A stretch of 64,000 nucleotides of DNA from positions 76,686,767 to 76,750,766 of the forward strand of contig OY720346.1 in NCBI GenBank assembly GCA_963082975.1. The letters are read 5' to 3'. A program made the translations under genes and the position numbers. This document shows, in pieces, positions 12,731 to 53,372 of the stretch. Under the pieces are notes generated by a model. It was not told where the DNA came from, ran no database searches, and saw only the letters and a program-made list of their open reading frames with translations. Source of the stretch: Labia minor (lineage: Eukaryota > Arthropoda > Insecta > Dermaptera > Spongiphoridae). Position 1 is the first letter of the stretch. Every line of letters begins with the position of its first letter.

Positions 12731-13467
12731 ATTTTTTTTTATTTAATCCATTATTTTCATTTGTTTTATTTTATGTTTGATAAACTTAGATGATTAAAAA
12801 TGCGTTTGAATAATTATTCTTGGTTAATCAATGATTAATGGATTTCTTGTGATCTTTATAAATAGTATCTTAATGCAAATAGAAATAATTATTTATTTAT
12901 TTATTTATATTTATAAATTTTCTTCTCGCTAAGAACAATTCGTATGTGTTTTTCTCGTTTCAAATATTTACATTGAAGGAAATTTTTAATCCATAAATAT
13001 TAAATATTAACAAGAACATTATTTGTTTCTTTTATTTAGGTAAATTACATAAAAGATGGTGGAGTTTTCTGTTAAGTTAAAAATTATTTATTTGGATATA
13101 AAACTAACATTTTTAAAAAAAGCATATTTGATTGCTGTAATGTTTTAGTTTTATATCTCAATAAATATTTTTTTAATTCCCAATATTCCTACAAAACAAA
13201 AAAAAACAAAACAAAAATAAACAATACCGCCCTTACCAGCCCTTACTATCGTCGGTCGGTAAACACACACACACACACCCAAGCCCGATTTTTTTTTCAA
13301 TTAGTTCACTGCGCATGCCGCAAGGTGGCAATGTTTCACGAAATAACATTGAGTGTCCACGTCTGATACGGATGGTCTGTGTGTACCTGTTTAGGTTAGG
13401 AAATTAGTTTAAATTGTAGTCAATTGTAGTTCAATCTAAACATGATAACTTGACATAAGAACAAACG
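12731..13467 (+). promoter_or_regulatory. PIGO upstream region
   Basis: No gene is seen here. A fragment of dispersed repeat B (the TATCGTCGGTCGGTAAA end) lies at about 13226-13280 with a CA microsatellite. The last 160 bp are clearly less AT-rich and contain CpG dinucleotides and a TTTAGGTTAGG string just before the PIGO ATG. This probably holds the promoter and 5' UTR, but no TATA box or initiator can be assigned. Confidence 0.35.
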
Positions 13468-16400: not shown

Positions 16401-19241
16401 GGACAGATTACCGATCGATGGCAGCACATTCAATGGGAATTGAATTGGCCACTGATTGCCTCCCGTTTACTTATCTTATTTTCATTATTAGCTTTATTTT
16501 CTAATAGTTTTGTAATCTACGAAGCTAGTGTCTCTCTATTTATGCTGCTTTCTCTTCTTTGGTTGATGGTCTATTATCATCGTCCTCGTCAAACGGAGAC
16601 ACATATTAATCGTGGAAAATCGATTCAAACCACTTGGTCAGGATGGAAACTTGCTGCTTTTGCTCTTCTAGTCAGCATTCTCAGCAGGTAATTAAAATAA
16701 ACCAAAGATAAGTTTTAATCATTGTTTTTTCTAATTTTTATATTTATTGTCCTACTTAATTACTTAAAGCACAAAGTATATTTAAATAATGTTAAACAAA
16801 AATTGGAAATTTTAGCAAATTTTTAGTTTTTAAGTCAGGAAAATACCCTCAAAATTTCAATTTCTCACAGAAATGTTGATAAAATTAATTAATTCATTAA
16901 TTAGTAATTTATTTTTTTTAAATGAATTGAAAATATTCTTAAAGGAATATTTTATATATATAGTATTGGGCGTCATTATTGGCGATGCCGTGAGGAACAA
17001 CCAGGATGTGATTGGCGAAAGAGTCCTCCACGATTTCGTAGTATTGAATGCCTTCTTGCTTTGGTGAGTTTGGCTCTCTTGGTTTCTGCAACTCGAATCT
17101 GGTTAAGAAGTTGTGGTAACCTTGTCGGCTTCTCCGCTGCTGTTTCTCTTGCACGATATGGTCCTACCGTTGCTGTCGTATGCAGTGGTGGTTTCTGGCT
17201 TGTTCAAGTAATAAATCTTAGTCATAGATTCAAATTGAACTTTAAATGATTATTATTCTTATTTATTTTCTAGGGTTTACCAACGGATTCAAGAGCAAAA
17301 CTTCTCCAACCTTGGCAATTACATTTGCTCCCATGGATTGTTTATTTTATAACTGCTTCAGCATTTATGGTCTCTGTCTATCGTCCACTTTGTGTTTATA
17401 TTGTTCCTCGGAGACCAGATAGCATCTTTGGCGTCTATGGCCAGGCCAATATTATTCCACGATTATTTAATCATATGCGAGATATGATGCACGAGGTATT
17501 TCTAATTATTCGTATATTAATTCATTATGCTTTTTTTTTATAGCAAAATTAGATAATATTTTGTGAAAATATCCTAATATGTTGTTTTGAAGTCATTGAT
17601 TTATTAATTTTATTAATCATTATATACTTTTCAAAATATATTCTAAAATAATTAAATTATTACATTTTTAATAAATAGAATATAATAAATAAAAAATAAT
17701 TTGCGATCCAGGAATTTAAATGAACAAGAGAGTCAGGATCGATAGACGTAACAAATCCGGTTTAAAGAAAATAAAAATAAAAATAATTTGCTTTTTAAAA
17801 AGCTATTATAAAGTTTAATTAATAATTAAACATTCAACAATTATATAAAATCATTTCATCAATTATAATATCTTGATTGTAATTTTGGATTTTGATTATT
17901 TATTATTGAATATTTGTTATTTCAGGAGTCGAACGAGGAACAGCCAATTGTTTTTGGTTTAGCTACTGCATATAGTTCTGCAATTTTGAGTCTCTGCGTT
18001 TTTGCTTCTCTTCTAGTCGCACTTTTACTCGGGGTAGTCCTTGCGCCAAGTATTTTCGTGCTTGCATGTCAGACAGCTTGTATTTTAACAATAACCGCTA
18101 TTACTCGAACTCAAGTTGCTACCAATACAGGTAATCTTTATTTTCTTATATATCGATATTTTAATTATTTATAATTATTAAATATATCAACGGATCTGAT
18201 GTTTTTTTATTTTTTAGTTGAACTTTTACGTGTTCCTTGGCCAGCTGTGGTCTGTTGGGGTTTTCTTGCTACTCACTCGTTCTATTTAACTGGTCATCAA
18301 CCTGCACTTGCGGCTATACAATGGGAGGCTGCTTTTGTGGGTACCTGGGGCCAATACGCTAACGGAGGAGATCATTTAGTCCCCACATTACTTGTATTAT
18401 TAAATACATATGCTGGGCATATTATTCTTGCACTTGCTTTACCACTTCTTCTAATTGCTCCATTTACAATACATGTAAAAGAAAAAAATAAGATTTATAT
18501 TAATCATTTGTAATTTATATGTTTAATTTATTTATAATTTATAATAATTTTAGGTAATGTTTCCTCGTTTACTTGGAGTTAAAGATTCACGATTGCCAGA
18601 ATTACGTCGTGGTGAAATGTTTCTCTTTGAAAAAGAAGAATTATTTCACCAGGGAATGTTTGATCTCGTTGTTAAATATCTTTTATACCATGGACTTAGG
18701 GTAAGAATGTTTATTATTTATCAAATCAAATAATTATTTGATAATGGTGGTGGTAAAAATTGTTTGTTTTAATAGCAATTAATAAATATTATATTTTTAT
18801 TTAAATTGTTTATTGCCGACTGAACTATAATATAATTATTATGAAATTTCTGTGTTTATAGCTTTAATTTATCTAGTTGAAATAAATTTAAAGTATAATT
18901 GAAAAGATCATATTATTTTTAATTATAAACAATCCATATTATAAGATCAACTATCTCCAAATGAATAATTATATTATTATTATTATAGATTATAATATAG
19001 ATGTATTCTTTTATTAAAGGGATTTATTCTATTTTAATAGGTGTTCGCCACTATGCTATCATCGTTAATTCACTGCCGACATTTAATGGTTTGGAAAATC
19101 TTTGCACCAAAATTAATATTTGAAGCATTGGCCCTAATAGTGACGATTCCATGTACACTGGCCAGTTTTCTTTTAATAGCTAGAATAAACGTACAAATTA
19201 CACGTTTATTTGAACGTCTTGAACGAGAGCATTTGTCTTAA
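13468..19241 (+). CDS. PIGO: GPI ethanolamine phosphate transferase 3 (PIG-O)
   Basis: This ER enzyme adds the bridging ethanolamine phosphate to the third mannose of the GPI anchor. The exons are 13468-14273, 14363-14433, 15685-16687, 16964-17207, 17274-17495, 17926-18130, 18218-18474, 18554-18700 and 19041-19241. All are in phase and give 1051 residues, near the usual family length. An N-terminal membrane anchor (residues about 8-27) is followed by an alkaline-phosphatase-superfamily lumenal domain. Visible metal and catalytic positions are Asp88 (LIVIDALKYD), the threonines of PPTTTMQR (about 138-140), Asp188/Asp189 (FLGDDTW), Asp244/His245/His248 (GVDHCGH) and the paired GDHG motifs at the exon 2-3 junction (GDHGMTSS, then GDHGGASD). 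Multiple hydrophobic helices fill exons 3-9. Start context is ACAAACGATGG. Intron 2 carries a nested transposon pair. The N-terminal exon alone could pass as a phosphodiesterase, but the joined protein is typical PIG-O. Confidence 0.95.
14482..15631. mobile_element. MITE family C, copy 2, split by repeat B (PIGO intron 2)
   Basis: The left half is about 14482-14782 and the right half about 15430-15631. The outer ends are inverted copies (AATGGTCATCCAGTCATGGA and its mirror ending GACCATTTAATATAATTA). The inner blocks ACTTTACCAGTGGATTCC and GCGGGTCGCTTCTAG are mirrored as GGAATCCACTGGTAAAGT and AGAAGCGACCCGC. Repeat B is inserted in the middle. Confidence 0.8.
14783..15425 (+). mobile_element. 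Dispersed repeat B, full copy nested in MITE C
   Basis: The unit is about 640 bp. It runs from GTTGACCTGTGGCCAGG through a GGACGGACAGACGGACAGAC block to ACTATCGTCGGTCGGTAAA. It is repeated in reverse at 37905-38515 and as a split copy at 39180-39396 plus 42692-42898. The segment GATTCGTGGAGATAT with CACATGTGAAATTTGGTG occurs twice within the unit. It is non-coding. Confidence 0.75.
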
Positions 19242-24870: not shown

Positions 24871-27800
24871 ATGGGGAATAGTAATAGGGAATCATTCAAA
24901 TTGTTGGATGTATCAGAAAGTGATTCAGATCTTGAAACAGGATTTATTGTCACTCAACAAAGGAAAAAGAAACTCACAAGGTGATTGATTCTTCATTTCT
25001 CCTTTAATTTTCTATTATTTTTATCATTTTCTTATTATTTTATATACTTTTTACTATATTTTTATACCCCCATCTTAGACCTTTAATACTTTTACATCAT
25101 TATCATTTTATATTTTCATAAATCAGATATTTATTTCACTTTTAGACATTATCTTGTTAATTTATTGACATCTATCACTGTTTGAAATACGATTGTATTT
25201 ATAATCATAAAATGTTATTTTATATTATTTTTAAATAATATTTCTTCTTATAAAAAAACAAATGGAATATAATAAAGCATAAGATATATATTTTTAAAAT
25301 AATATTCTAACAATAACCAATGTTAAATATGAAATAATTAATTGTTTTATATTGAAAAGAGCAATGCCTTATAGCTTATTAACATCTAATAAACTAAGAG
25401 GGTAATATTATTTCATATTTCTATTGCTATCATCTTCTATCGTTTATGCATTTAAAAAACTTGATATTTATTTTCATAATTTATATAACATGGCATTTAT
25501 TTAACAATGCATTCAATTTATTTAAATAAAAAATCGAAATTATATATGATCTAAATTTTATATTTTGTATTTCGATTGTCAATACAGCATATGGTAATTA
25601 TAAAAACTGGTCATCCTGTCATGAACTTGAATAAAACTTTACCAGTGGATTCCTTTTTTAAATATAAATCAACTTTTCTTATGCAATTTTTGCGGGTCCG
25701 CTTCTAGTTTTTACAAGATAAATAAGCTGGAGTGTCTCCCTTCGACTATCTCGCAAATTTGAATTGGATTAATTAACATATATTATATTTAAATTAAATT
25801 TAATTAATTAAATTATAAATTAAAATTAATTATTAATATTTATTATACCAGCGCATGTTTGGCTCTTTGTTGATGGCACCATGTCACGTGCTGGCGCGTG
25901 ATTGTCAGTCAACGTGTTAAAAAAATTAATTCCGGTACTTTCAGCGATTCAATCAAGCTGAAATTTTATATATAGCAGTTTTATACAATTTTTAATCATG
26001 TGAAAAATTATCAAACATATATCTTTATTTTAACGAGCACTTTAGAAGAATAAAAATCAAAACGTGGTAGGTAATGACCATCTTCCGGTTGAGCTACATT
26101 TCTCAAAAGTTGATAGAAAACTACCAATTTTGAATAATTCCCATATACCAAATTTAATTATTCTAGCTCAAACTGTTATTGCGTTTTCTCTGAGGAGATA
26201 GTAAAAAGGATTAAAATTTGCATATATTCATTGATATTCTATTTAGCTACCATGTATTATTTATTTGACCATCAGAGGACTCCTCTAATTTTCTATGCTT
26301 TTTTTTTATTCAGATTAGATATAGAAAAATTAAAAAATTAACTAATTAAATAGTTTCCCTATATCCAAACCGAACCGAAAAATATTGATAATTAGGAATA
26401 AGTGAATAATTAGTGAATTAGTCAATAAAACATTACTTAATGACATCATATTTCGAGGTTCATAATAAGCTAATCTGTCAAACTTTAATCCCTTTTAACT
26501 CGCAAACTAGAAGTGACGCGCAAAAAGTTTAATTGGAATTAAAAAAGGAATCCACTGGTAAAGTTGTATCCAAATCCATGACATGATGAGCAGTTTGTAT
26601 AATTACCCAGCATATTTCAGATTTTAAAATGTCAAATTTATTTTCTCATATATCTCTTTAGAAATAAATATATTGTATATAATTTCTTTAAATGTGTAGA
26701 CGTCGTGGTGGCACCACACCACGTTTTCGTGGGGAACGCCATCAACATGCTGGCCGTTGCAAATGCACCCCCGTCATTGCATTCATCCTCGGCATTGCCT
26801 TTCTTATCTGTTGGCTTGTGACATTATCTTGGCTTGCCGCTGTCCTTCGCGGCGAGCTTCTACGCCTCGATCAAAATGTTCGCAAAGGTAAATCACTACA
26901 TGAGTTTAATTAATTTGGATGAAACTTTACCAGTGGATTCTTTGTCAATTACAAAGAAACTTTCTTTATACAATTTTTCCGGGTCGCTTCTAGTTTAGGA
27001 TAAAAATTATGAAAATTTGCATATAAATCTACGTTTTATTCATTGGACCAGCAGAGGGCTCCACTATTTTTCTGTTGTTTTTTTTCTTTCAGTTCGGATT
27101 AATTAAATAAATTCCCTATATCCAAACCGAATCGAAAAAACCGAAAATTAGAGAATAAGTGAATAATTAGTGAATTAATCAATAAAACATTACTTATATA
27201 TAATGGCGACGTTCATAACCAGCTAATCTGTCAAACTTAAAAAATCTTTCTTTATCCCGTAAAGTAGAAGAGACCGAGAAATATTGTATAAGGAAAGTTT
27301 CTTTGAAATTAAAAAAGGAATCCACTGGCAAAGTTTTATAGAATCCATGACATGACAACTCTAATCTGAACAATTAAATTATTCCAATCTTATTTTTTTC
27401 ATTAAAAAAAAAAAAAAAAAATTACATTATCATTTTTTTAAAAAGCATAAGCATAAGCATCTCCAAAAAAACCCTGATCAATTCTTATATAATTTTAATT
27501 TTTATTATCATTGTGACTGTAGATGTAGACGATAAGATAATTCTTACATCTGTTTTGTCATCTGACAAGAATGTGTTTGTATATATATTTTCTATAACTT
27601 TTAATTAAGAATTAAAATAAAAGAGGAAATGATGAATGGATTAGAGAAAATTATCATAAATTAATTTTATATATAGGTTCATAATTTACTGTTCATTTTG
27701 TTCAAAAAAAAAATTAATTAATGGTAATCTTATATAAGATAGAATATATTTTTTTATCGTTTGTTCTTTGTCAAATACTCTACTTTAATGTAAATAAAAT

Positions 27801-30800
27801 AGTTCAAATAGAAATATCTTTAAATAACAGGTTAGTTTTTGATAAGATATTTTTTTAAAATAATTTTCTCTCAAATTATTCGTTATAATATATAAAATTT
27901 TAATTTCAAATCATAATCTTATTATGTTAATTATTCCCTTAGAGGAATATTTATATAATATCGATACCATATAATTACTTATTCGTTAATACGTTATTTC
28001 TTTTTTTTTTTTTTTTCATAGAAAATATTCTTTAATTAACAGAGATAGCACGAAAGTTTATTGTAAATATTATATAAACACTCTCTACTTTATCTTAAAG
28101 GAACAATTAACAAGTTTTGAATAAATTTATTTTATTTGAATTATTTAATACGTTGTAGAGAGAGAATCATATCCAATATTATTATATATTTTACATTTGT
28201 CCTTCAAATTATATAAATACATATTGTATTTACAACTCTACATAATTGCTAGTTCCTATACTCAAATTAAACTAATAAATAATTATTTAATAGGTTACCA
28301 ATGTATTTAAATAATTTTTATAAATCTCTTTTAAATTCAGAAACAATTTTTATTTGTTTTTTAATGTTTTTTTATATTTTACTTTGCTTTATCAAAAGTA
28401 TTTATATATATTCTATATGGTATATACGAGGTTTGTTCTAAAGAAAAGGTGTATTTTGAATTATTTTGAAAAATATTTATTTATTCATCGATATCCATTT
28501 TGTCCCCTTCAAAGTAATTCTCCTCAGATATAATGCACTTAAGCCATCGCTTCTTTCATTCGTCGAAACACTTCTGAAATGCGCTTTTCGGTATGGCCAT
28601 CAGCCTGTTCTTCGATTCCGACTTTATCTCATACATTGTGGCAAAATGCTTTCCTTTCATTGGTCTGTCTTCAGTTTTGGGAATAGGAAAAAGTTGCAGG
28701 GAGCCAAATCTGGTGAATACGGTGTTTGTGGCATGATTACGGTGTTGTTTTTGGCCATAAAATCATGAACAAGCAATGATTTGTGAGCTGGTGCGCAGAA
28801 TCCATGATTTGTTTTTCCACATTTCCGATCGTTTGAGCCGTATTGCTTCACACAAACGTTGCATAAGTTCCTTGTAGTATTCCTTATTAACAGTACGACC
28901 TGTTGGCAAGAACTCATGATGCACCACGCCATTTTAATCGAAGAAAACAGTGAGCAAAACGCTCATCGTTATCAACATTTTCTCGGCCTTCTGTAACCAC
29001 TTATAAACATTTTTTTGAGAAAAGTATATCACAGTCAACATTTTAATTGCATTGGAACACTTTATTCCAAAAATGGCTGATAATGTCAACATATGAGAAA
29101 CAAAAAAAAAAAAAAATAAAAAATTCGATAATCGAATGTCCACAGCCCAAGAAAATTCAAAATTCACCTTTTCTTTTGAACAGACCTCGTGTAAATATCC
29201 AAAATATTTATATATTTAAGTGTAAAGAGAAAGGTGTTAATTTAAACGTAAGACATGTTGAAAACATCAAAGATCATTAGATTTTCGTAGTTAAATAGTA
29301 CGCAACTCAGGACAAGACTTCAATGAGCATCACTTTGAAAAATTTAATTTATTTTATAAATTATATTTATTATTAAAATATTTTGATTTTCAACATATGG
29401 AAATGTTTATAATATTTCAATTGTAACTATAAGTTTTAGAATGATTTACTAGTCCTTATTAATCTATTTAGTTTTTAAATTTGAAAAAAAAAATTTAACA
29501 CAAAGTATTTAAAAATCTAATGACATTTTGATGGATAGATATTATCGTATTTATCATGATCATTATGAGAAATGATTTCAATGATAAATACAATTGTTCT
29601 TTTTAAATTATATTTTAATATAATTTAATAAATAAAAATGAAAAATTATTGAGAAAAATAGTCTAAAGAATCAAATGATTTTCTTTATTAATATTTGTTT
29701 ATTTTCAATAGAATAAGCTAAATTGAATAGAATAGATATAGAACAGTGATTCCCAAGTGGGCGCTACCGCCCCCTCGTGGGCGCTGGAGCGGTCCAGGGG
29801 TGAAGGTCACAGGTGCATTTAGGAAAAATTACTTGTATATTACTTCTATTCTAAGATCAATAAATAGATACATAAATTCAATGTTTCTAATTTACACCTT
29901 TATTTATAATTTGGTGTATTTATCTATCTGTTTAATTGTTATAAAAAGTAAAAAATAATTAATTTCCAAGGGGGCGTTGAGTAAATTTTTTCTGGAAAGG
30001 GGGCGCTTGGCCAAATAAGTTTGGGAACCACTGCATTAGATGAAAAAGCAAACACTCTTTGAAAAAAAACAAATACTTAATATTATTTATTATTTATTAT
30101 TCATTGATTTCTATTTTATTAATAAGAAAAAATTGAAGAGATTATTTCTTTCATAGAATTTACTTCAATCAATTATGTTGAATTAAATAAAATAGTTTAA
30201 AATATTTATTAAGAGTAACACATGAAAGTTGAACTTATTGAGAATTATTTTGGAATTTATCAAGATACAATATAATCTAGCCTAGTCTAGAAGTCTATTT
30301 AATGATATTTCAATGGGAGAAATATATTTTTGGAATATAATTTTATTTCAAAATTACATATTGAGAGAAAACTAATAATAATAATAATAATAATAATAAT
30401 TGAAAAAATCTGGAGTGTCTCCACTCGACTATCTCGCAAATTTGAATTGGATTAAATAACATATATTAATTTAAATTAAATTAAATTAATTAAATTATAA
30501 ATTAAAATTAATAAATAATATTTATTAAACCAGCGCTTGTTGATGGCACCACGTCACGTGTTGGCGCGTGAGATTTGCAGTGTTTAAAAAATTAATTCTG
30601 GTACTTTCAGCGATTCAATCAAGCTGAAATTCTATATATAGCAGTTTTATACAATTATTAATCATTGTGAAAAATTATCAAACATATATCTTTATTTTTA
30701 CGGTCACTTTAGAATAAAAAAAATCAAACGTTTTAGGTAATGACCCTCACCGGTTGAGCTACATTTCTCAAAAGTTGATAGAAAACTACGAATTTTGAAT

Positions 30801-33800
30801 AATTCCCGTATACCAAACTTAATTATTCTAGCTCAAACCGTTTTTGCGTAATCTTGGTTACATACATACACACATACCCACACACACAGACAGACATTTT
30901 TCTCTACCTTAGTGAAAATGATTCAGGAACCTTCAAAACGTATAAAAACATCGAAATCTAAACATCGAAAATTTTTGTAATCGCAATACTATCTCTGGCG
31001 AGATAGTAATAATGGGAATCGAAAAGGAAATATAACATTATAATAAAAAATTATACTAAAGAAAATAAAAATTATTCATTTAATTTTATTTAATAGTTAA
31101 AATCAATTTTATATAATGAAAAAAAATTTATTTAATTTGTGTTTTGAGATCAAGATAGATACAATGGATAGTTTATAAATGATAAATAAGTATTGATTTA
31201 TTTTTGTAAAATAACTATGGTAATTGTTTACAAAACGGGAAAATTCACGGATTTGGATGAAAAAGTTAATTTCCAAGGGGGCGCTGAGTAAAATTTTTTA
31301 TGGAAAGAGGGCGCTTAGCCAAATAAGTTTGCGAACCACTGATATAGAGTATATTATAAAAAAAAATAATTCAAACTCAATTAAAATGATTAATTCATAT
31401 CTAATTTGGAGTTGTCTTAATTATTTATCTTATCAATGATAATGTGTATCTATCCTATTTGGATAGGATTGAATAGGAAATTCCATTAGGGTTCCTTTTC
31501 CAATCTTCCTATGTTGTGTGTTTGCTGGTTCGTTGATCGAATGGTAACGCCTGTTATCGTTTTGAGGGGGCGCGCAAGCGCGAATGGGAACCGTGAACGC
31601 GTGAGATCGATCGAGCCGACAGTTGATTCACGATGATTGCATGAAAGGCGTCGAGGTGTTCCCTGGTGAGTGCGAGGTGGAGGATGGACTCAGTGCACGT
31701 GAGCGTGCCGCTGCGCGGCGGTAAACGAATGAAAAAACGCCGCGAATTGGACGCGAAACGCAATTCGGCACAACAGCAGAGTAACGGGTGTATGCAGTCC
31801 TCCCGCGATCAGCTGTTGTCGGCGTCAAGTGACGAGGGTGGCCCCTGGCCGCCCAGTGCCAAGAGCAGGGCGCATGCAGCTGCAGCGGCTCGTGCTCGAG
31901 CCAGAACCCGCTGCTGTCGAGGACTGCTACGCGGATGTTCAGCACTTCTTGTGTTCGCCTGCGCTGTCGCCACGACCACTGTCATGTGGTTATTCATCGA
32001 TATCCGCGAGCAGCTCACCTCCCTTCGCACTGAACTTGACCAAGGTCCTTATCCTCGATTCACGTTTGCACCCCACTTCCTCCTTTCAGAAGAAACCAAC
32101 ATCATTTTACTTTAAACCAACTTCAAGGTCACCAGATACGATTTCTATCTCACCGCGGTCATCCCCACATAACCTCATAACAAACCCCATTGACATTTTT
32201 TCATTAGCAAATCAACTACTAAATGATCCTAGGATGCAAAGCATAGATAGAAGATTATTTTATTTATTTTATTTTTGTAAAAAAACTTGTCTTATTCACA
32301 AATATAATTATTATTGCTATTATTATTCAACTTTTTGATCTTCTCGTGTCAAACACGGTGTTATTATTATTATTATTATTATTACTTTTACTTTTAGTTG
32401 TATAACAAAATGAAAACAAAATTTTCCCCTTAATTCAGTGGTTTCCAACCATTCTGTACCGGCGCCCCCCTTTTTTTAAAAAAAATTCTCTTAATCTTAA
32501 TAATCTAATTTCATAAATACTCACATAATATAGTAATTTATTTAATTGGTTACAAAATAACACATACACATTACACACTCACACACACTCAATTAAGCAA
32601 AAGCATATCATATATTATTATGGATTTGAGGGGGAAAAAATGGTTCTAATACATTCGCGCCCCCCACAGGTTGGAAAACGCTGCCTTAATTGATTATTTA
32701 TTTATAAAATAAAATGAATAATATTATCTAAAGAAAGGCATATAGTGCAATTTATCCCTTTATCTTTATGTTCAAAACAAATGTCTCATTGATTTAAAAT
32801 ATTAACATATAACTAAATTATAAAGGAAAATTATGATCATAAAAAAATATTATAGGTAAACAACAACAAAACATTATTTAACCTTCTTTAAACGTTATTT
32901 TTCCTCTTTTAACAAATGTGCACGTACTTCAAAAAATACAATAACAAAATGATCTTTTTATAACTTCTAAATAAATGTATAGGAAGTGGTGTCATCCTAA
33001 ATATTTTATAAAAGGTTTGGTAATAATTTGGTACAAAATTTAGAAAACAATAAACTTTTATTTTATTCACAACAAACTTCCGAATTCTTTTTTGATATTC
33101 TGAATGCTCCTTTTCTTGATTATGGTCTCATCGGCTGTATATTTTTCTTCACGAAGTCAGGATTTTACAAAAGATATTGGATCCCAATCCGAAATTGACT
33201 TTCCAATCATAAATATTGTCATAAAATGGCCAATATTTACAACGAAAAGTTGAATTTCTTTTATCTGTTGCTATATTATTCATTAAGCTAAAACCCCTTT
33301 CAGCTTAGGCTGAACTGACAAATTAACAACGGGTTTGTAGTTATAAAAATATTTTAACAACAGGTTTATAATAATTTAACCCGTAGGATGACACCACTGT
33401 GCAGGGCACGTGGGAATGAGAGAGGAAAGATTAGCACACAAAAAATATATTGGTGGGGAGACCTATTGGGAAATGTCCGGTTGGAAGACCAAGGATGCGG
33501 TGGGTAGACAATGTAGGAAGGGATCGTGAGAGAGATTGGAGAGGGTCAGACCAGTGTGGTTGCTGCAACCAACTTTCAAGTTCCGTAGAGCCACAGAGAT
33601 AAATAGACATATTTATCTTTAAAATTGATTTTAAAAATTTTTAATTTTAATTTCTATCTTTGCCTACTCTACCCTTCTTTTCCATTTTTCTTTTAAATCC
33701 AACTTTCAATTGTTATTTTAACATATTTTCATAATATAATACTATTATATAGAATAATTTTTTAATTTTTATAAAATAATTATTAAATATTACAATAAAA

Positions 33801-36800
33801 TAGCATACAAGAATGCATAATGAATATTTTGAATTCTGTTTTTATATTAAATCAAATCAAATCAAATAAATCATAATTATTTTTTATTTAAAAAATAAAA
33901 TTTATATATTTGTATAGTAGGTTACAGGTATTTGTAATTAGGATAATATGTAAAATTTGCTTAATATATTATATAAATTATATTAAATTATTATAAAATT
34001 AACCGAAATAAATATTGAAAGAACAAATTATCCTAAATTACAAGATTTTTTTATGCATTAACGTGGTATATTAAAGTGAAAATAAATTCGATTCATTCCT
34101 GTTCACTTAAAGTGAAAGTGAACAAACTTGATTCTCATATAAAATTAAAAAATATAATAAAAACTATAAAATAAATAAATAAATATAATTTAGAAATAAA
34201 ATAACAATATTAATATATAATAATTATTAGTATAAGCAATTAACATAAAAAATAAAAAATGTAGTATTATTATACATATATAGTATATCAAAATTAAATC
34301 TACAAGATTAAATAATAAACTCCTAATATTTTAAAATAATTAAATAAACTAAAAAATAATTATGAACCTACTTGTACTACAGGTATGCCTCGTTTAACTA
34401 AAAATGCAAATGCATTATTATTTATTTTTAAAATTTTAAATCTTAGCATGTAAATAAAATTATTTCGAGTGGGAAACGCTCGCTTGGAAGACCAAAGACG
34501 CGGTGGGTGGATAATGTAGGAAAGGACGTAAAAGAGATGGGAGAGGAGAAGGATTGGATGGTTGTGGCTCAGGATAGGGATACTTGGGGGAATGTGGTTG
34601 CTGCGCACAAGAACTTTCGAGTTCCGTAGAGCCACAGAGATAGATAGATACGTGTAGATAAATAGATAATTTCGAAATCTAGATTTATCTATAAAGGTAA
34701 ATAATTTTAAATAAAATGTAAAAATTACTATTTCACCATATTGTTTATTACTGATATTATTCAGATAAATGATTATTTTTATTTGCCACCTCAATTAATG
34801 ATTATATCTTATAATCAATTACCATAAACCATTCATTTGAACTTTGTTTTCATTCAAGCATCATAAAAGCTCGTCCTATAGATGAATAATTTTTCTCTTT
34901 TTACTTCATATTTTAGATTATTTGTTTTATTATAATATTTATTTAGTATACATTTTATTATATATTGACCGACCATTTATATTGATATATTAATTTATTC
35001 AAAGGGTTATGATTTTGCATATAAATGACTTTATTACTTTCATTTACATATATACGTAGATATATGGATAGAATAAGTGAATATATTGAAATTAAAGTTT
35101 AGTATAAGTTTAGTATAAGAATAATACATTCTAATACTAATCCTAATTCTAATTCTAATAATGATTCTCTAATTTTTACCTTATTTATTAAATTTAATTT
35201 CATGCAGATAAAATTCTTACTTTTTCATTTACTATAAAATTTAGTAAATCTAAAAATGTAAAATAGTAAAATCTAAATAGTAATATTTACAGGGAAAAGT
35301 TGTGTAAGGTATGAATATAATTAATCCTAATGAATTTATTTATGAAGAAACCAATTGAAAAAAAATTAGACGAAGGTTGCTTTTAAAATTATAATCATTT
35401 TGAAGGAGGGATTTGAAAGAGGCTTGAAATAGGATGAGGCCAGTGATGTATTAGTAAAATAAGAAGTAAGGGAATGCATAGTGGGAGCAAAAAATCAAAT
35501 CAAAATTTTCAGCAAACTATTTATTTCCATATAAGTTTTTATTTTTTCTTATTCTTACTATACAAAATATTTACGAACTCAAAAAAAGAAATTCTAACAG
35601 TAGATTTAAGTGGGTGTTGTCGGGACATTAAAAAGTACTGGAACGCGTTCCGGTTCTGAAAAAAGGTAAGGGAACGTCGTTCCCCCGCGTTCCCATACCA
35701 ATACACCACTGGATGAGACGTCTCTAGATAGGAACCATTGGAAATTGGTTAATAAAACTAACAAATTTTCTATTCAAGTATTTTATTATAAATTAATCTC
35801 TTTAATTATCTCTTATATTAAAAAAAAATATATATTTTTTCAAACTATTTATAAATTCATGATATATAATTTTTTTTTATATATTAGTGCAGTGATTCTC
35901 AACCTTTTTTTTACCGTGGCACACTTTTAACGGTTTAAAAATTTGGCGGCACACAAAGAAAAAGATAAGAGTAAAAGTTTACCATATTGAAGAAAAGTGG
36001 TCCTAAAAACGGTTTACCTTTGTTTTTAAAAAAACCAAATTGAAAAATTTAGAAAAAATAGTCGGAAATGTTTAAGAACCTAGTTCCAAAAACGTTTTAC
36101 CTTTTTTTAGAAATTAAAGTTTAAGAGTCTCGTAATCTTGCTGCACACTAAAGTACCGCGGCACAGTGGTTGAGAATTACTGTATTAGAGAATAATTACA
36201 AAAAAACATTTTACCATAAAAAGACAACAAAAATAATAAAATATGTAAATTAAAAACATGTCTGGTAGAGGAAACATTAAATTAAAATTTTAAACACCTT
36301 CTAGTCATTCATTCAGAATTCAATTTGAAAATTGTAAATAAAATTGTTTTTATTCGCAATACTCACCTATGATAAAGTTAGATGATTATTTTTTTTGTTT
36401 CAAATTCGATTTCTATCACTTACCCATTTGTTCACTTCTCTTGATGAATATGTCAAGGGCAAGTTAATTTTAACAAGCTCTCAATTTCCCCAACATAACC
36501 AGCTGTTGACAAAAGGAGGACAAATACAAACAAACAAAAATCTATAAAATAATAAAAAAAAAATTATAGATAATCAATCATTTCGTTCAAAAATTTTATT
36601 TCTATTATTATTATCAAAGATTTTTCGATTTTTATAAACCTTTTATTTTTTAAAATGAAAAAACCTATTATTTTAATTATCATTCAAATGGAGAAGGAGG
36701 AGTGTTTAAAAACCCTAAGACCTCTAAGAATCCAACCCTTGCACTCCAGACTATTAATATTTAATTTTTATTATTAAAAATAAATTATAATTTCTGTTTT

Positions 36801-39800
36801 TTTTATTTAAAAATAAATAAAGAAAAATTAAAATGAGTGCATTTAGATAAATTAATTCATATTTTTCTACAATTATTTTCATAATTATCTCGCCAGAGAT
36901 AGTAAATTTCACGAAAAATTTTGATGTTTTTATACGTTATGAAGGTCCCTGAGTCATTTCCACTAAGGTTGAGAAAAATGTCTGTGTGTGTGTTATGTAG
37001 ACAAGATTACATAAAAAACGGGCTACGTTTGAGCTAGAATAATGAAATTTGGTACACGGGCATTATTCAAAATTTGTAGTTTTTTTGAAAAATGTAGCTC
37101 AATCGGAAGATGGTCATTACCTACAATGTTTTGATTTTTTTTCCTCTAAATTGACTGTAAAAATAAAGGTATATGTTTGATAGTTTTTCACATGATTAAA
37201 AATTGTATAAAACTGCTATATATAGAATTTCAGCTTGATTGAATCGCTGAAAGTACCACAATTAATTTTTTAACACGACTACAAATCACGCGCCAGCACG
37301 TGACGTGGTGCCATCAACAAAGAGCCAAACACGCCCTGGTTTAATATATATTTATTGATATTTATTTATAATCACATTATTTAATTAATTTATCTTAATT
37401 TTTTAACAAGTTGACTGCCGTTCACGTTCCAGCACGTGACGTGGTGTCATCAGAGTCAAACACGCGCTCATTTAATAAATATTATTTATTAATTTTAATT
37501 TAAATATAATATATGTGTTAATTAATTCAATTCAAATTTGCGAAATAGGCGACTGGAGACACTCCAGATTTTTTTTAATGTGTACTTCAACAATTTTCAC
37601 ATTATCTATACAAGAAAAAAAAACAATGATGCAATTATCATTTCTTAGTTTACTTTTTCATTAGAAAATAAACTGCAAAGTTTGCTGACAAATAGAGGTC
37701 ACCTTATTGATTGCTACTCCCCCAAAAGGAAGATTATATCAGCTTATCATAAAGGGGAAACCACTTGGAAAATTAATTTTATTTTATGAATGAAAACTAT
37801 TATATCACTTTGATTAATTAATATAATAATTTTCTATAACTTTGTAAATAACAATCTCAACATCCTTAAAAAAAAATTAAATTAACAAAAAATGTATTTA
37901 TATATTTTTTACCGACCGACAATAGGAAGGGAGGTATTGTTTTCTTACCAAATTTCACATGTGGAGATTTTTACATATCTCCACGAATCAGGCATTTTGT
38001 TAACAGAAAAAAGTATTTTTAGTATGATGTCTGTCCGTCTGTCCGTTATGTGTCCGTATAGACGTGTACAGCTTGAACGGCTCAACGGATTTTGATAAAA
38101 TTTGATAGACTTACTTTATGCATCAGTATGATGAATTGATCAACTTCTGGTGCAAATCCGGAAACCGGAAGTGGGAGTATTACTGATCGACGATAGGAAG
38201 GGAAGTGTTATTTTCACACCAAATTATATATGTGGAGATTTTTTGCATATCTCCACGAATCATGCACTTTGTATTGGTTTTATTCTCGGGAATAATCATA
38301 TTCACTAGTTTTTTCTTAATTTAAAATTGTATGACGTCACCCAGCCCTTCTTATATATTATAAATAAAATAAAATTAAAAATATTTATGTTATATCCATA
38401 TCTATTTTTTATTGCATTAATAGATACATTTAAATAATTTGAAATTGTTTATGTAGCTGGAAATTAATTTATTTCAAACCGTTGGTCGGTTCTGTGCCTG
38501 GCCACAGGTCAACTTACTAGAAACTAAGAATATATATTGAAAATGTGAATTATAATGTGATGAAATATCGTAAATCACTTAAAGACATTATATCTTTAGT
38601 CTATAAACAAATTTACTTTGACCTATTTAAGCTGACATCATATGTATGTTTAGTACATATTTGTTTACTAAGCGTTTATTGATATAATTCTTATCCACCA
38701 TATCATTATTAAATTTTGTATAAATAATTAAAAGGAAATATTAATTCAATTTTTCTTTTCAAATTAGTCTTCAATTCCTTTTATACATTTCATTCATGGT
38801 CCAAATTTAAAATAATTTTATATCTTGTTCAAAGTGATTATGTTGGTGTGAATAATTAAAATTTTAATAGGATTTCAAGGTTATATATATATAGGCAGGA
38901 GATATATATATAGGTATATTAATTTTTTACATTTTTTTCAAAGATAAAAAATTAACTAAAAAAAAATAATTCTGTTAAATGATATATTTTAAGAGTATTT
39001 AATCTTTTATTTAAAATTTTTAATTAAAATATCTGTATTGTGACTTAATCTGATTATTTTAGGAGAAGTTATTATATATACCTATAGAGAACTATATTTT
39101 TTATATGATTTTTATTACATTGGTAATGGCATTTTTACCTTAAAAGAGAAAGCGATCTTTGTGATAAGTCAATTGCTTTTAATGAATAAGAAATGAGCTG
39201 TGGCCAGGCACAGAACCGACTGACGATTTAATAATAATTAAAAACAACATTATATATTATTATTTCGCCAGTTAGTTTAATGTAATAACAAATTTCCGAC
39301 AATGAATATAAAATTAATTCTTTGTAAACTACCACTTCTGGTTTTCGGATATACACTAAAAGTTGATGAATTCATGTTATTGATGCATTAAGTAAAGTAC
39401 CGGGACCCCGAGCCTCGGCTCGGTACTTAAGTTAAAAAAAAATGATTCATTATTATTGGGTTTGGCTGGTAATATTAATACCTGGGACACCGAGCTGTCG
39501 CTCGACCCTTTAAAAAATATTAATCTACAATTAATTATTTATTACAATTATTAAATGTTGCATCATTGCATCAATCTGATTAAAATGAATTGAACTGGGG
39601 TCCTCAATAATACAAACAAACAATTTTAGCTAGCATAATAAGATTAATCCAAGTAATATCGTCTATTTCTATTCGACACTATTTTCAGTTATGAAATGAA
39701 CAGTCAGTAGAGAGTAAAAAAATTGTAATTGAAGACCGTTGTTTTTAAAAATAATTAAATTATTTTATAGATTATAAAATAAAAATTATTGTATTAACAT

Positions 39801-42800
39801 TAAAAATATTGAAATAAAAAAATAATAGTTTGATTTAATAAACTAAAATATTATAAACATTTTTAATGTGAATTTCTCAGGGAGGTAGGGAGCCCAATTC
39901 ATTTAACCATCCATGTTGTATAAGGAATCTTAATTTCTTAACACTCCGTTTTTTCAAATTTAAAATAGAGGGAGAGAAAGAGTTTCAATTATATTCGAAT
40001 AGTCTATATATTCTATATATGAGTATTTTTTTTTTCTGAATTTAATACCAAGTTGATTTTCAAAATTTTCTATTCTTTATGCATATGATTGATTACATGT
40101 GTTAAAATTTAAACAAATTCAAATATTCTAATTTATAAATTTATATAAAATTTAATATTATTTTTTCGAGACTAATGGCAAATACCGGTGGCCCTAGTCA
40201 GAGCAAGAGAAGACTCCTTTTGGTAGCGGCCCAGTCGATGATGTTATATGGATCGGAGATTTGGGCTTTACAACTATATTTTAAGTGAAAAAATGATTTC
40301 TTGGTTATATAAAAATTAAAATATGATTCTTTATATCTTTATTATACAGAAAAGTAGGCGTGTTAATATAAAATATATACCTGGGACACCGAACTATCAC
40401 TCGACCCTTTAACCAATTTATACAATTTATTTTTATATACTTTAAAAATTTTACAATTTTTTAATTATTTATTATAATTGTTAAATGGGATTTCTAAAAA
40501 TGACCCATTAAAAATTTGTTTCCTAAAATGTTTCAAATTAATTAAAATAAATTGTATAAATGTTCATTTATAAAATCTATATATCTGTGAGTTTGTTTTT
40601 CGATTTTTTAAATTTTGATTTTGGATTCGATTAGAGCTTAAAATGTGTAAATGTAAAGTGGTCTTGGTTTTTTTAAAATTCGTTTGGGAACATGGTCAAA
40701 TCGGCAGTCAAAGTTGAAAATTCCCCATATATTATAACTACTGTAATTAGTATTATATATAATGTAAAATTATAAAGAAAAAATGTTTAGACATTATTAT
40801 AGACATTTTCATTCTGTAAATTAAATAATTTTATTTCATTTAAATAAATATCTATTTTTAAATATTTTTTTCTCTCTACATTATTTATCTAATTCTCACA
40901 ATATATTAAGATCATACCGGGACCCCGAGCCTCGGCTCTGTAATTAAGTTAAAAAAAAAAAATTCATTATTATTGATAAATATATATCGTAATTTATAAT
41001 TATAAAATATTATTAAAATATATATTTTTAATTTTATTTCGAAATTAAATAAAAAATTTTAAAATATTTTAAATATAAAAAAAATATTAATAAAATATTC
41101 TTTAAAAAAAGGCGGGAGTCAAATTTCAATATAAATGTCATTTGTGATGTCATCAATATATAAATTAATAATAAATAATATTAATAAATATTAAATTTAA
41201 TAAAAGAACAATGAATAAATAAATATAAAATAGTAATTTATTAAAATGTAAACAATAGATAAAAAGAAAAAAAATAACAAATTCATTATTTTCATTTTCA
41301 TTTTTAAATAACGATTCACCCGGAGAGTTTCGAACCGACGAAATCCACTCGTTAAAACATCACTTTACCATCTGGACTAATATATTTAGATAAAAAATTC
41401 TCATTTTTTTACTGTCTTAGCAGGCAGATTTGATGTTTTTTATTTTATTTTTTTTTTTTGAGAGAGATTAATAAATATCTATATATATTTTATTAAAAAT
41501 AAATATTTTTAATTTTATTTCGAAATTAAATAATAAATTTTAAAATATTTTAAATAAAAAAAAATATTAATACAAATAAAAATGGAGGCCAATTTTGACG
41601 TTTTCCATATATAATTTTCAATTTAGAAATTAATAATGAAGCTGAATGTTTCAAGAGATGTGATCAATAAAACTCAATTTTTCTTTATAAATACTATATC
41701 TAGTGTGAATTTGAAAAAAATCGTTAGAGCGGTTTTTGAGAACCAATATATATAGATAGATAGATATATACAATTTTAGCTAGCATAATAAGATAAGATA
41801 AGATATAAAAATGCTTGTTTTTTATGCTTATATATATTGGATATATTGGATGTATTATGATACTGAGCACATGGCAAAGACTTTCTAAAAATAATTGTTT
41901 TAAAAAAAAAACGCAGGGAAAACCCAGAGATATGCCTCTTCGTTACCCCAATAGAGAGAGAGGGGTGGACAATTTTGCCAAGTGGCAGAGGAGGGGATGA
42001 TTGGCTTCGACATATTTTGAAAATTCTCAACAACTACACAATATACCAACTGTGGTCGACAATTGGTAATTAATAATTAATTATAAATTGCAATTGCTAA
42101 AATATAAATTAAAGTTCTTTTAATTTATATTTCTATTTTTACGGTACCTTTCAATTATTCTATTTCATCTTAATTTAATAAAATAATATTAATAAATATA
42201 TTAAATAATATTTTATTGAAAAAATATTAAAAATTATAAAACTATCTAAAACTTAATTAATAAAAGAACAATGAATAAATAAATTAAAAAGTAAACAATA
42301 GATAAAAAGAAAAAAAAATAACAAAATCATTATTTTCATTTTTAAATAACGATTCACCCGGCGAGTTTCGAACCGACGAAATCCACTCGTTAAAACATCA
42401 GTCCAACCGCTGGACTATATGTATTTAGATAAAAAATTGTCATTTTTTTACTGTCTTAGCAGGCAGTATTAAAAATTTTGACGTTTTCCATATAATATAT
42501 AATTTTCAATTAAGAAATTAATAATGAAGCTGTATGTTTCAAGAGATATCATCAATAAAACTTAATTTTTCTTTATAAATACTATATCTAGTGTGAATTT
42601 GAAAAAAATCGTTAGAGCGGTTTTTGAGAACCATGATATATAGATAAATACATATATACAATTTTAGCTAGCATAATAAGATAAGATAAGATATAACAAA
42701 TTTTATCAAAATCCATTGAGCCGTTCAAGCTATACACGTCTATAGAGACACACAATGAACAGACGGACGGACAGACATGATGCTAAAAATTCTTTTTTCT

Positions 42801-45800
42801 GTTAAAAATATGCATGATTCGTGGAGATATGAGGAAAACTCCACATGTGAAATTTGGTGTGAAAACAATACCTTCCCTTCCTATCATCGGTCGGTAAAAA
42901 AAAACAAGTTTCTTCTGTGTTTGAACTCATTTGCATGACGAACAAGAAGAGAAGCTTAAGCACCCTTTCCTCTATTTGTATTTTGATTAAAAAACACCCT
43001 TTCCCTTTTCTTTTCTCTAATATTCCAATAACACTAAATTTAGTTTTATTTGACCTTATTATTTTATTGATATTTATTGCCATGTACTCAACCTCTATTC
43101 ATTCCGATTGAAATACAATTATGCAAAGTTACAGTTGAATATCAAGGGAAAAACAATTGCATAGTTTTATTTTTAAAGTTTCCAAGGTAACCCCAAAAAA
43201 TTAGTTCCAAAGTTTTCCTCATATCGAATTCTATATATATATATGATTTTATTATACTAGTACAAATTGTATATCTTTTTATATATAATACATGTTAAAA
43301 TATAATCTTATCTTATTATGCTAGCTAAAATTGTATATATCTATCTATCTATATATATTGGTTCTCAAAAACCGCTCTAACGATTTTTTTCAAATTTACA
43401 CTAGATATAGTATTTATAAAGAAAAATTAAGTTTTATTGATGATATCTCTTGAAACATTCAGCTTCATTATTAATTTCTTAATTGAAAATTATATATGGA
43501 AAACGTCAAAATTGGCCTCCATTTTTATTTGTATTAATATTTTTTTTTATTTAAAATATTTTAAAATTTATTATTTAATTTCGAAATAAAATTAAAAATA
43601 TTTATTTTTAATAAAATATATATAGATATTTATTAATCTCTCTCAAAAAAAAAAAAAAATAAATAAAAAACATCAAATCTGCCTGCTAAGACAGTAAAAA
43701 AATGACAATTTTTTATCTAAACATATATAGTACAGTGGCTAGAGAGATGTTTTAACGAGTGGATTTCGTCGGTTCGAAACTCGCCGGGTGAATCGTTATT
43801 TAAAAATGAAAATGAAAATAATGAATTTGTTATTTTTTTTCTTTTTATCTATTGTTTACATTTTAATAAATTACTATTTTATATTTATTTATTCATTGTT
43901 CTTTTATTAAATTTAATATTTATTAATATTATTTATTATTAATTTATATATTGATGACATCACAAATGACATTTATATTGAAATTTGACTCCCGCCTTTT
44001 TTTAAAGAATATTGTATTAATATTTTTTTTATATTTAAAATATTTTAAAATTTTTTATTTAATTTCGAAATAAAATTAAAAATATATATTTTTTTTATAT
44101 TTAAAATATTTTAAAATTTTTTATTTAATTTCGAAATAAAATTAAAAATATATATTTTAATAATATTTTATAATTATAAATTACGATATATATTTATCAA
44201 TAATAATGAATTTTTTTTTTTTAACTTAATTACAGAGCCGAGGCTCGGGGTCCCGGTATGATCTTAATATATTGTGAGAATTAGATAAATAATGTAGAGA
44301 GAAAAAAATATTTAAAAATAGATATTTATTTAAATGAAATAAAATTATTTAATTTACAGAATGAAAATGTCTATAATAATGTCTAAACATTTTTTCTTTA
44401 TAATTTTACATTATAATAATACTAATTACAGTAGTTATAATATATGGGGAATTTTCAACTTTGACTGCCGATTTGACCATGTTCCCAAACGAATTTTAAA
44501 AAAACCAAGACCACTTTACATTTACACATTTTAAGCTCTAATCGAATCCAAAATCAAAATTTAAAAAATCGAAAAACAAACTCACAGATATATAGATTTT
44601 ATAAATGAACATTTATACAATTTATTTTAATTAATTTGAAACATTTTAGGAAACAAATTTTTAATGGGTCATTTTTAGAAATCCCATTTAACAATTATAA
44701 TAAATAATTAAAAAATTGTAAAATTTTTAAAGTATATAAAAATAAATTGTATAAATTGGTTAAAGGGTCGAGTGATAGTTCGGTGTCCCAGGTATATATT
44801 TTATATTAACACGCCTACTTTTCTGTATAATAAAGATATAAAGAATCATATTTTAATTTTTATATAACCAAGAAATCATTTTTTCACTTAAAATATAGTT
44901 GTAAAGCCCAAATCTCCGATCCATATAACATCATCGACTGGGCCGCTACCAAAAGGAGTCTTCTCTTGCTCTGACTAGGGCCACCGGTATTTGCCATTAG
45001 TCTCGAAAAAATAATATTAAATTTTATATAAATTTATAAATTAGAATATTTGAATTTGTTTAAATTTTAACACATGTAATCAATCATATGCATAAAGAAT
45101 AGAAAATTTTGAAAATCAACTTGGTATTAAATTCAGAAAAAAAAAATACTCATATATAGAATATATAGACTATTCGAATATAATTGAAACTCTTTCTCTC
45201 CCTCTATTTTAAATTTGAAAAAACGGAGTGTTAAGAAATTAAGATTCCTTATACAACATGGATGGTTAAATGAATTGGGCTCCCTACCTCCCTGAGAAAT
45301 TCACATTAAAAATGTTTATAATATTTTAGTTTATTAAATCAAACTATTATTTTTTTATTTCAATATTTTTAATGTTAATACAATAATTTTTATTTTATAA
45401 TCTATAAAATAATTTAATTATTTTTAAAAACAACGGTCTTCAATTACAATTTTTTTACTCTCTACTGACTGTTCATTTCATAACTGAAAATAGTGTCGAA
45501 TAGAAATAGACGATATTACTTGGATTAATCTTATTATGCTAGCTAAAATTGTTTGTTTGTATTATTGAGGACCCCAGTTCAATTCATTTTAATCAGATTG
45601 ATGCAATGATGCAACATTTAATAATTGTAATAAATAATTAATTGTAGATTAATATTTTTTAAAGGGTCGAGCGACAGCTCGGTGTCCCAGGTATTAATAT
45701 TACCAGCCAAACCCAATAATAATGAATCATTTTTTTTAACTTAAGTACCGAGCCGAGGCTCGGGGTCCCGGTACTATACATTAAAATTAAATAATTAATT

Positions 45801-48800
45801 TTTAGTAACTGTGAATGATGGATGAATTTTCATGTTTTTCTAATATTAGGAATATTAGGAATAGGAATTTTATAAAGTACATATATTTAAAAAAAAAAGT
45901 ATTGAAATATTTTTATTTATAATTATTTTTTTTTAAATATGAAAATTATTAAACTTCATATAAACAATACTATTATTTAAAAAAAAAAATATTTAAATTA
46001 AAAAAATATTATATTTTTGGCTGATTTGATTCATGATTTTTGTGGATAAAATAGCAGGGTATTTAAAACAAAAAATTATAAATCAAAGATTTGGAAATTT
46101 TAAGTCAATCTCCAATATTTTTCATTTATCTTTAAAAAAAAATAACTTGATTTTTAAATGTAAAAAAAAAATAAGAAATTAAAACAAAATTGGAAGTGAA
46201 AATCCAAAAGAAAGAAATGTCATTGTCCTCTTCTAATTAAGTCGAGATTATAATACAGTAGAACCTCGATAAGTTAAAGTCCAAGGGAAACACAAAATAT
46301 TTTAAGTTATATTTTCTTTTATAAATCTAGAATCAAGCCTATTAACTAACTATTAAATAACTAAAAACTTTAAAATAAATTAATAAAAAAAAAAAACCTT
46401 TTTAATATACACGCTTTTTAATCAAAAATGCTCTAAAAAATAGAAAATATTATATTAATTAAACCTTGAATATTATCCTTTACATATGCCCAATAAAAAT
46501 TATTAAATTCTTTACTTACTACAGTAGAACCTCGATAAGTTAAAGTCCAAGGGAAACACAAAATATTTTAAGTTATAGAGGTTTTAAGTTATCAAGGGTC
46601 AATGTTAGGGATTTTATAATAACATTGTTTTAAAGGATAAATCATGTCATTTCTTAAAATTCTCTAACCAGTCATTGCTGGCTTTAAAATTTTTGATTTT
46701 CAGCGAATTAGCGAATTCTTCAGCTTTTTCTTTCAGTATGGGTCCACTAACACTGATGTTTTTGTTTCGACACTGTTTGAAGCACGTAAACAAACATTAT
46801 TCTAAATTCGGCAATTTTTCGACTTTTACATTTACATTCTTGTTTCTTCAAGATTTCAGCTTCTGGTGGTGAATACAGAGATGACTTATTTAAGTTATAG
46901 AGGTTGCTTATTTTACGTTATTGAGGTTTTGGGCTCTGATCGGAAAGGAACATTTTAATTTTTGAAGTTATAGAGGTTTTTAAGTTACCGAGGTTTGAGT
47001 TATCGAGGTTCTACTGTATAATATAACTATTGGGTAAAAAAATACAAATGACAGTTGGAGGGGGGATGGAGAGGCAGAGACGGCCTTTGCTCACCAGCTA
47101 GTATCTAATAAAAAAAATGAATTAATTCATTTCAATATTGTAATTAATTAATTTATTTATTTTTGCAGCCGTTGCAGGAAGCCAAGGTGTTCCTGATGCG
47201 TTACAAAAATGTCATAGTATGACAAGAGAGCTCGAGGGCAATCAAACAGAGCTCTATAAAAGAATTGATAATCTTACTTTACAACTAAAACAACATTCAG
47301 ATCAGTTAAGTATTGCCCAAAGAGGACTTGAAGCAGTACAATCTCGATTAAAAGCAGCACCAGAATTAGAATCCATTCCTCAAGCTACCAAAGAACTCTC
47401 CGTTAGCGTAGCTGATTTTGGATCTCAACTTAAAGACTTGACGAATACCGTACAAGGATTAAAAACTCAAACATCTGAACAACAACAAGTCGTACAAACA
47501 ATATCATCAAATATTACATCGCTTCAGGTAAAAATAAATATATAAAACTTATTCAATATTTCCAATAAAATGATTACTAACTACATAATTAAATATTTCT
47601 GAAAATAATAAGAATTTCTTGCTCAACCTGAAATTTTTTTTCTTTTATAACAACTTTCATATTAAAAATATTAATTAAATGTCAATATTTCGTGTTTATA
47701 AATAATATAAACTTCTTAATATATCTACATTTTAGTTTATTAGAAAGATATGCAATTGTTTCATTGTATTTTATTAAAGAATTACATTTTTGTAATTTAC
47801 AATTTGTAAGAAATACGTAAGCATATAAGGATAAAGAAATAAAATGAATTAAAAAAAAAATTAATCAGGAAAGTTAAATGTTTAAAAAATTATATATTAT
47901 AAATTTATATATAAATAGGTATATATGTATATTAAAAAAAACATTATACAAAAAAAAAAATTTCTTTAAAAAGGATATTTTATTTTAGTTTTAATTTTTT
48001 AAAATTTTTCTTTTCTTTCATATCAAATCATTTCATTAAAATCGTGTATTCTTTCTAATAAATTCAAGTTTCATTCTAAATTCCAAATAATATATAATAT
48101 AATCAAATACATTAAAATAATTTTTTATATTTATTTTTTCAAAGGATATTGCAAAAAAACTTGAAAATATGACCAACATATCGCATCCAGGACTCGATGC
48201 AGATACACAAAATAAACAAGGGGAATTGCAAACTCAGCTTTCTCAATTAATCGCAAATGTCACTCATATCAACGACACTCTCACAGCGCAGCTCAAATTT
48301 ATCAATGATGATCAAAAAGCAGATCATGTAAGCTTATCGTTCTAGATTGAAATTGGATTTCAAATTAATTATTAAATAATGTTTATTATTTATTATTCAA
48401 TTAAAATATCATAATTGCCATACATTATATTAATTATAAACTTATTTCTTTTTAATATTATTCTAGAAAAAGCTCGGAGCATTAGAGGAAGCAGATCAAA
48501 ATGTTCTTTCCCGTTTATCTACTTTAGAAGAAAAAAATAAAGCATCAATCAATTCTTCGGATATTGTTGATCATCTGAAAGAAATCACAGAACAAGTAAA
48601 TATTAATTTAATTTTATATAAACTTCAAAATAACAAAAAGAAGATTAATTGAATAAATTGAAACTAATTTTTTTCTCTAATTCAGTTTAATCTAACTAGT
48701 ACTTAAAGATTTTGAATTATTTTTGCAAATAAATAATAAAACTAAATTTTAAAACTTTTATTTATTAATTTAATTATCATTATTTTTAAATAAATTTCTT

Positions 48801-52944: not shown

Positions 52945-53372
52945 TCCTTAGGCATTTCTTGGGAGAACTTCTAGTTTTCGAGATACAAGTGATTAAAGAT
53001 TGGATATCAATTAGATGGTTATGAATGTCGAAATGTGCAGCCATTAAGAAATTTCCATTGACTAATTCACTAATTATTCACATATTCACTAATTTTAGTT
53101 TTTTTCTGTTCGGTTTGGATATAGGAAAATTATTTTATTAATTAATTTTTTAATTTTTCTATATACAATCCGAACTGAAAAAACCGAAAATTAGTCGCGC
53201 CCTCTGCTGGTCAAACTGCTAAGACATGGTAGCTAAATGGGATATCAATGGATTGATATCCAATCTTTAATCACTTGTATCTCGAAAACTAGAAGTTCTC
53301 CCAAGAAATGCCTAAGGAAAAAGTTTCTTAGAATTAATCAAAGAATCTACTGGCGAAGTTTCATCAAATTCT
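52945..53372. mobile_element. MITE family C, copy 5 (diverged subfamily)
   Basis: TTTTTCCTTAGGCATTTCTT and GGGAGAACTTCTAGTTTTCG are mirrored at the right by CGAAAACTAGAAGTTCTCCC and AAGAAATGCCTAAGG. The central GACTAATTCACTAATTATTC and GGTTTGGATATAGG blocks match family C. The plus-strand frame across it (53237-53443) is repeat sequence. Confidence 0.8.

Follow-up and report, generated by a model that had tools for sequence, protein, structure and literature searches.

The 64-kb window, which is the whole stretch of DNA analysed here, has a GC content of 24.8% and comes from an assembly of 604 Mb in 71 contigs. It contains a gene, taken by us to encode an EFCAB14-like protein, in which two 5' modules, A (two exons) and B (one exon), lie upstream of a single set of common exons (Table 1). 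The window also holds the exons of a lamin-like gene (3059–6600) and of a PIGO-like gene (13459–19240), both named by eye, of which the latter gives a phosphodiesterase Pfam match just under the cut-off at 13459–14277 (22.6 versus 23 bits), and an open reading frame at 60078–60368 whose product matches the SWIM zinc-finger family (Pfam PF04434, E 6.1e-7). The lamin-like and PIGO-like genes make an arthropod source probable. The coordinates, GT/AG borders and phases of A and B in the original prediction were confirmed: both modules end in phase 1, and each joins the exon at 47169 in frame. The common part begins at 47169 as predicted; the end put at 47527 did not hold, and four more exons follow to a stop codon at 49553, giving a common ectodomain of 299 residues. 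At the level of sequence, the gene has the layout of alternative-promoter N-terminal variants: either of two first-exon modules reads in frame into a single constant exon. Among the best candidates scored, searches of the 604-Mb assembly with the ectodomain, A and B as queries led to this locus only; within the 64-kb window there was no second copy of the ectodomain and no additional A- or B-like stretch better than E 0.87. A recurrence at that value, between the residues preceding MKKRREL in B (PLRGGKR, 31708–31728) and 5925–5987 in the lamin-like gene, is likely due to chance.

Table 1. Exons of the EFCAB14-like gene and the associated GC-rich island (positions in the window)
Feature	Position	Strand	Content	Basis
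Exon A1	24871..24980	+	Module A start; cytoplasmic tail MGNSNRESFKLLDVSESDSDLETGFIVTQQRKKKLTR; acidic dileucine ESFKLL; CK2-type acidic/serine sites	Donor AAG/GTGATT, score 7.68; single locus in own-genome search
Exon A2	26700..26887	+	Basic patch, C57/C59, hydrophobic helix (28 uncharged residues), stalk; phase 1 out	Donor AAG/GTAAAT, score 10.79; GC 0.54 in AT-rich surroundings; single locus
Exon B	31684..32044	+	Alternative first exon; MKKRREL Met in frame at 31729; RARARTR patch, CC pair, hydrophobic helix (22 uncharged residues), stalk; phase 1 out	Weak donor AAG/GTCCTT, score 3.19; no other post-helix phase-1 GT upstream of the in-frame stop; single locus
GC-rich island, candidate promoter	31500..32120	.	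Surrounds exon B	
Common exon E1	47169..47527	+	Coiled-coil stalk; phase 1 in, phase 0 out	
Common exon E2	48145..48327	+		
Common exon E3	48467..48595	+		
Common exon E4	48808..48973	+	Phase 1 out	
Common exon E5	49492..49553	+	Contains the stop codon	

The prediction that each module supplies one membrane helix, a basic patch and a cysteine pair was borne out. The highest 19-residue Kyte-Doolittle means are 2.66 in A and 2.25 in B, the uncharged span at the helix is longer in A than in B (28 versus 22 residues), and the juxtamembrane cysteines are residues 57 and 59 in A and 62 and 63 in B (numbered from MKKRREL). The acidic/serine patch that had been ascribed to both modules is evident in A (SESDSDLE) and weak in B (SSDE). 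A second membrane helix was not found in the ectodomain, where the best 19-residue hydropathy mean is 0.65; the ectodomain has nine N-glycosylation sequons and neither A nor B has any. Positive charge is greater on the N-terminal side of the helix in both modules (+4 versus +2 in A; +6 versus -2 in B). Because the sequons are confined to the ectodomain and more positive charge precedes each helix, both forms are predicted to adopt an N-in, C-out (type II) topology. Judged from hydropathy, charge and heptads only, the protein shows the EFCAB14-family arrangement of an N-in single-pass helix followed by a coiled coil. Sequence identity between the modules is low, as had been predicted, at 9 of 46 residues in an alignment anchored at the junction, and their similarity score was equalled by 70 of 2000 whole shuffles and by 190 of 2000 layout-keeping shuffles. 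Because this similarity is not significant, we rejected the idea that A is a copy of B; homology of the two cannot be shown from their own sequences.

Vertebrate EFCAB14 (KIAA0494) has an MKKRKEL start, an acidic serine patch, a CC pair before one helix, a coiled-coil ectodomain and a C-terminal EF-hand. Our only comparison sequence was a provisional version of the N-terminal half of the human protein, and it is on this basis that we call the present protein EFCAB14-like. Against this provisional half, E1 scored 94, B (from MKKRREL) 82 and A 54, and 2000 whole shuffles of each gave no score as high; when the layout was kept in shuffling, the score of B was equalled in 0 of 2000 and that of A in 14 of 2000. 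With a provisional query and a comparison prompted by the original prediction, we treat this resemblance as a lead, not as a test. The present protein differs from EFCAB14 in that its 299-residue ectodomain has no Pfam EF-hand match (B form in full; A form to the end of E1): in the 419-aa B form, no EF-hand was among the Pfam matches up to E 1, and the matches listed for the full B form and for the A form through E1 (11 families; best 25 of 28) lay below curated cut-offs. A search with E1 of phage, viral-contig and genome-contig collections gave no relative. Among the literature matches listed for EFCAB14/KIAA0494, no title concerned insect EFCAB14 or alternative starts, and a table covering uncommon calcium-binding proteins marks Efcab14 as 'Unknown' (PMC8156796).

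The two junctions were further assessed by the heptad register of the coiled coil. The register was picked on E1 only, as the one placing most hydrophobic residues (a set that included Ala and Trp) at a/d positions in E1 residues 10–70, and in the best register 12 of 17 such positions were hydrophobic (0.71). Carried back over the junction, it gave hydrophobic residues at five of five a/d positions in the stalks of both A and B, each of which measures 19 residues from the Trp that ends the hydrophobic span to the junction. Five of five was equalled by 418 of 20000 shuffled A stalks and by 102 of 20000 shuffled B stalks; when the stalk was shifted by 1–3 residues, the hydrophobic fraction at a/d fell to 0.17–0.60. 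This test is a quantification and was not blind, the agreement of A and B having been seen before it was measured. The unbroken register is residue-level support for the two junctions, also for that of B via its poor donor. The claim that two 5' modules feed one coiled-coil ectodomain was supported in part, by the continuity of the register and the single-locus searches, with the weak donor of B counting against it.

Donor scores come from a matrix built on 19 donor sites, read by eye, in the lamin-like, PIGO-like and EFCAB14-like genes of the window, each of the 19 being scored with itself left out. These begin with GTA in 17 cases and with GTT and GTG once each; that of B is GTCCTT. Two of the 19 scored lower than B when left out (2.75 and 3.17), and 12.5% of GT sites on the plus strand outscore it, the A donors reaching 7.68 and 10.79. 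Two other sites near B score higher, GTGAGT at 31665 (5.13) and GTAAAC at 31720 (6.64). A search for alternative B donors yielded none, 32044 being the only phase-1 GT between the B helix and the in-frame stop, and a U12-type donor was dropped for lack of a clear consensus by eye. Separately, the lamin-like gene also has an apparent poor donor at 3689 (AAG/GTTCAT, score 2.75).

Exon B lies in a GC-rich island, in which GC is 0.55–0.59 per 300 bases compared with 0.248 in the window and the CpG observed/expected ratio is 1.18 compared with 0.97. GC by codon position has no bias in B (0.60/0.58/0.60); in E1 it falls from 0.55 to 0.38 to 0.20, and the A exons follow the same trend (A1, 0.38/0.35/0.28; A2, 0.67/0.52/0.43), with the GC of A2 dropping at its splice sites. 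The island is also open in further frames, of which one of 201 aa on the plus strand and one of 117 aa on the minus strand overlap B. The prediction that B carries an MKKRREL start held insofar as this Met is in frame in B; it lies 45 bases downstream of the Met at 31684, and is thus residue 16 of the claimed exon, in a poorer start context. The Met at 31684 is overlapped out of frame by an ATG-initiated reading frame at 31641–31722, and several upstream ATGs lie in 31500–31728. Because MKKRREL begins at residue 16 and the Met with the better context is overlapped by an upstream reading frame, the start of B is uncertain.

At A, no promoter was identified in the sequence, and an acceptor-like site at 24783 leaves room for A1 being internal. 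Copies of a terminal-inverted-repeat family flank exon A2 (25593–26607 and 26905–27370), and related pieces lie at 1–397, 1837–2251, 12448–12737, 14481–14797, 15415–15628, 30403–30849, 37027–37574 and 52967–53272. Elsewhere, at 28423–29193, 46-nt inverted repeats that are 87% complementary enclose a minus-strand open reading frame (28657–28962), which by eye we take to resemble a mariner transposase and which had no Pfam match at E 0.01.

To see how distinctive A and B are, both strands of the window were scanned in three phases for at least 45 open residues with a hydrophobic 19-mer, a stalk of 5–30 residues and a donor scoring at least 3. All eight matches were in phase 1: three in the PIGO-like gene, A, B, and three others (28430 on the plus strand; 56985 and 52237 on the minus strand) that look spurious. 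Because only two of the eight matches are A and B, they are not unique by this filter and layout alone is weak evidence.

Our working hypothesis, to which we assign a moderate probability, is that the locus is one gene for a type II single-pass protein that is EFCAB14-like but lacks EF-hands, and that its transcripts begin with either of two 5' modules. Three other readings were weighed against it. It is possible, though we think it unlikely, that A alone is the coding 5' end. The island at B would then serve as promoter or leader, its transcripts being spliced from 31665 to 47169 or to another site, and the B frame would be no more than an open frame within GC-rich DNA. This would account for the two better-scoring GT sites at 31665 and 31720, for the absent codon periodicity and for the further open frames overlapping B; however, the register is continuous at 32044, helix, CC pair and stalk follow one another in the right order in B, and the match of B to the provisional EFCAB14 sequence (82) was reached by none of the 2000 layout-keeping shuffles; splicing from 31665 into 47169 would also leave the product without its membrane helix.

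We are more doubtful of the converse, in which B alone is the functional 5' end, being more EFCAB14-like, and A, lying amid transposable elements, is a module that is used less, was gained recently or is decaying. That A is fully open with two better donors, that its second exon is GC-rich with GC dropping at the splice sites, and that it enters the coiled coil in the right register at one genomic locus all argue against decay or disuse, even though B matches the provisional EFCAB14 sequence better than A does (82 versus 54), A2 sits between copies of a terminal-inverted-repeat element and no promoter was identified at A. Finally, the 20 kb separating A2 from 47169 could mean that A is part of a different gene or that A and B belong to one longer message, which we regard as very unlikely. 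The phase and register of A and its match to the provisional EFCAB14 sequence point to 47169, and the seven frames scanned of the 23 stop-to-stop frames of at least 70 aa between 26.9 and 47.1 kb, that of B included, had no Pfam match at E 0.01; moreover, a message running from A into B needs an acceptor before B and would give a protein with two helices.

In the favoured reading of one gene with two alternative 5' modules, transcripts starting either at A or in the GC-rich island at B would be spliced to the same exon at 47169, such that the glycosylated coiled-coil ectodomain would stay constant and the change would affect only the cytoplasmic tail and the membrane helix. The sequence itself shows the phases, frames, hydrophobic spans, sidedness of the sequons, continuity of the register and the single locus; the use of both starts, the choice of promoter, the oligomers and any difference in trafficking are inferred. 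The exchange of A and B would most likely alter where the oligomer travels. The acidic dileucine pattern is [DE]xxxL[LI], with which ESFKLL in A agrees; together with the adjoining acidic serine cluster and the 28-residue span, this motif would fit a plasma-membrane or endolysosomal route. B, if read from MKKRREL, has arginines at positions 4–5, RARARTR and a 22-residue uncharged span, which would fit ER or early secretory retrieval. Di-arginine signals, first described for type II proteins, are reported at positions 2–3, 3–4 or 4–5 from the N-terminus (PMC2799409), and the argument from the early RR of B requires the second Met (31729) with its poorer start context. An acidic dileucine arose in 714 of 20000 shuffles of the A tail, and in the B tail RR within residues 2–5 arose in 1125 of 20000 and at least three RxR in 1718 of 20000. 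Because such short sorting motifs arise in shuffles, we offer the trafficking step as a proposal. Since the two stalks share one heptad register on entering the coiled coil, mixed oligomers of A and B chains could also form. In its fullest form, as a two-promoter switch in a type II protein that exchanges the whole tail and helix with the register kept and sends same-ectodomain or mixed A/B oligomers to the ER or to endolysosomes, the hypothesis is speculative and we consider it rather improbable.

The design itself belongs to a known class, exemplified by ECE-1, DPP6/KChIP, CD74 and Dscam isoforms, and the present case is plausible, if unproven. Accounts of ECE-1, DPP6/KChIP and Dscam describe how promoters or exons exchange a tail or a helix; ECE-1 isoforms a–d are of the same design class, and in the present gene the helix is exchanged as well. 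N-terminal variants of DPP6/DPP10 and KChIP are described as arising from different first exons or start sites attached to a shared core, with some KChIPs gaining a membrane helix from the variable part (PMC3973911); unlike the present gene, DPP6/DPP10 share the transmembrane exon, and KChIPs are cytoplasmic proteins whose anchor is optional. Dscam exons 17.1 and 17.2 are described as two alternative transmembrane exons of one gene with different neuronal targeting (PMC2566808), and in Dscam the choice is made by splicing among internal exons rather than between alternative first modules. In CD74 (invariant chain, p33/p35), an N-terminal extension is described as adding an RxR ER-retention motif; the protein also has leucine-based endosomal signals, and its luminal part trimerises (PMC8362237). 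This logic of an RxR extension plus leucine signals resembles our proposal for A and B, but CD74 uses an alternative start codon and its helix is not exchanged. The 5' cassettes of sDscam and clustered protocadherins are described as alternative promoters joined to constant exons (PMC4835542); the sDscam cassettes vary ectodomain Ig domains, whereas in the present gene the tail and helix vary. If both modules are used, first exons that replace an entire helix with the register kept would make this type II protein a clean case of anchor swapping, and the isoform-specific tails and anchors would provide a direct handle on the protein's site of action.
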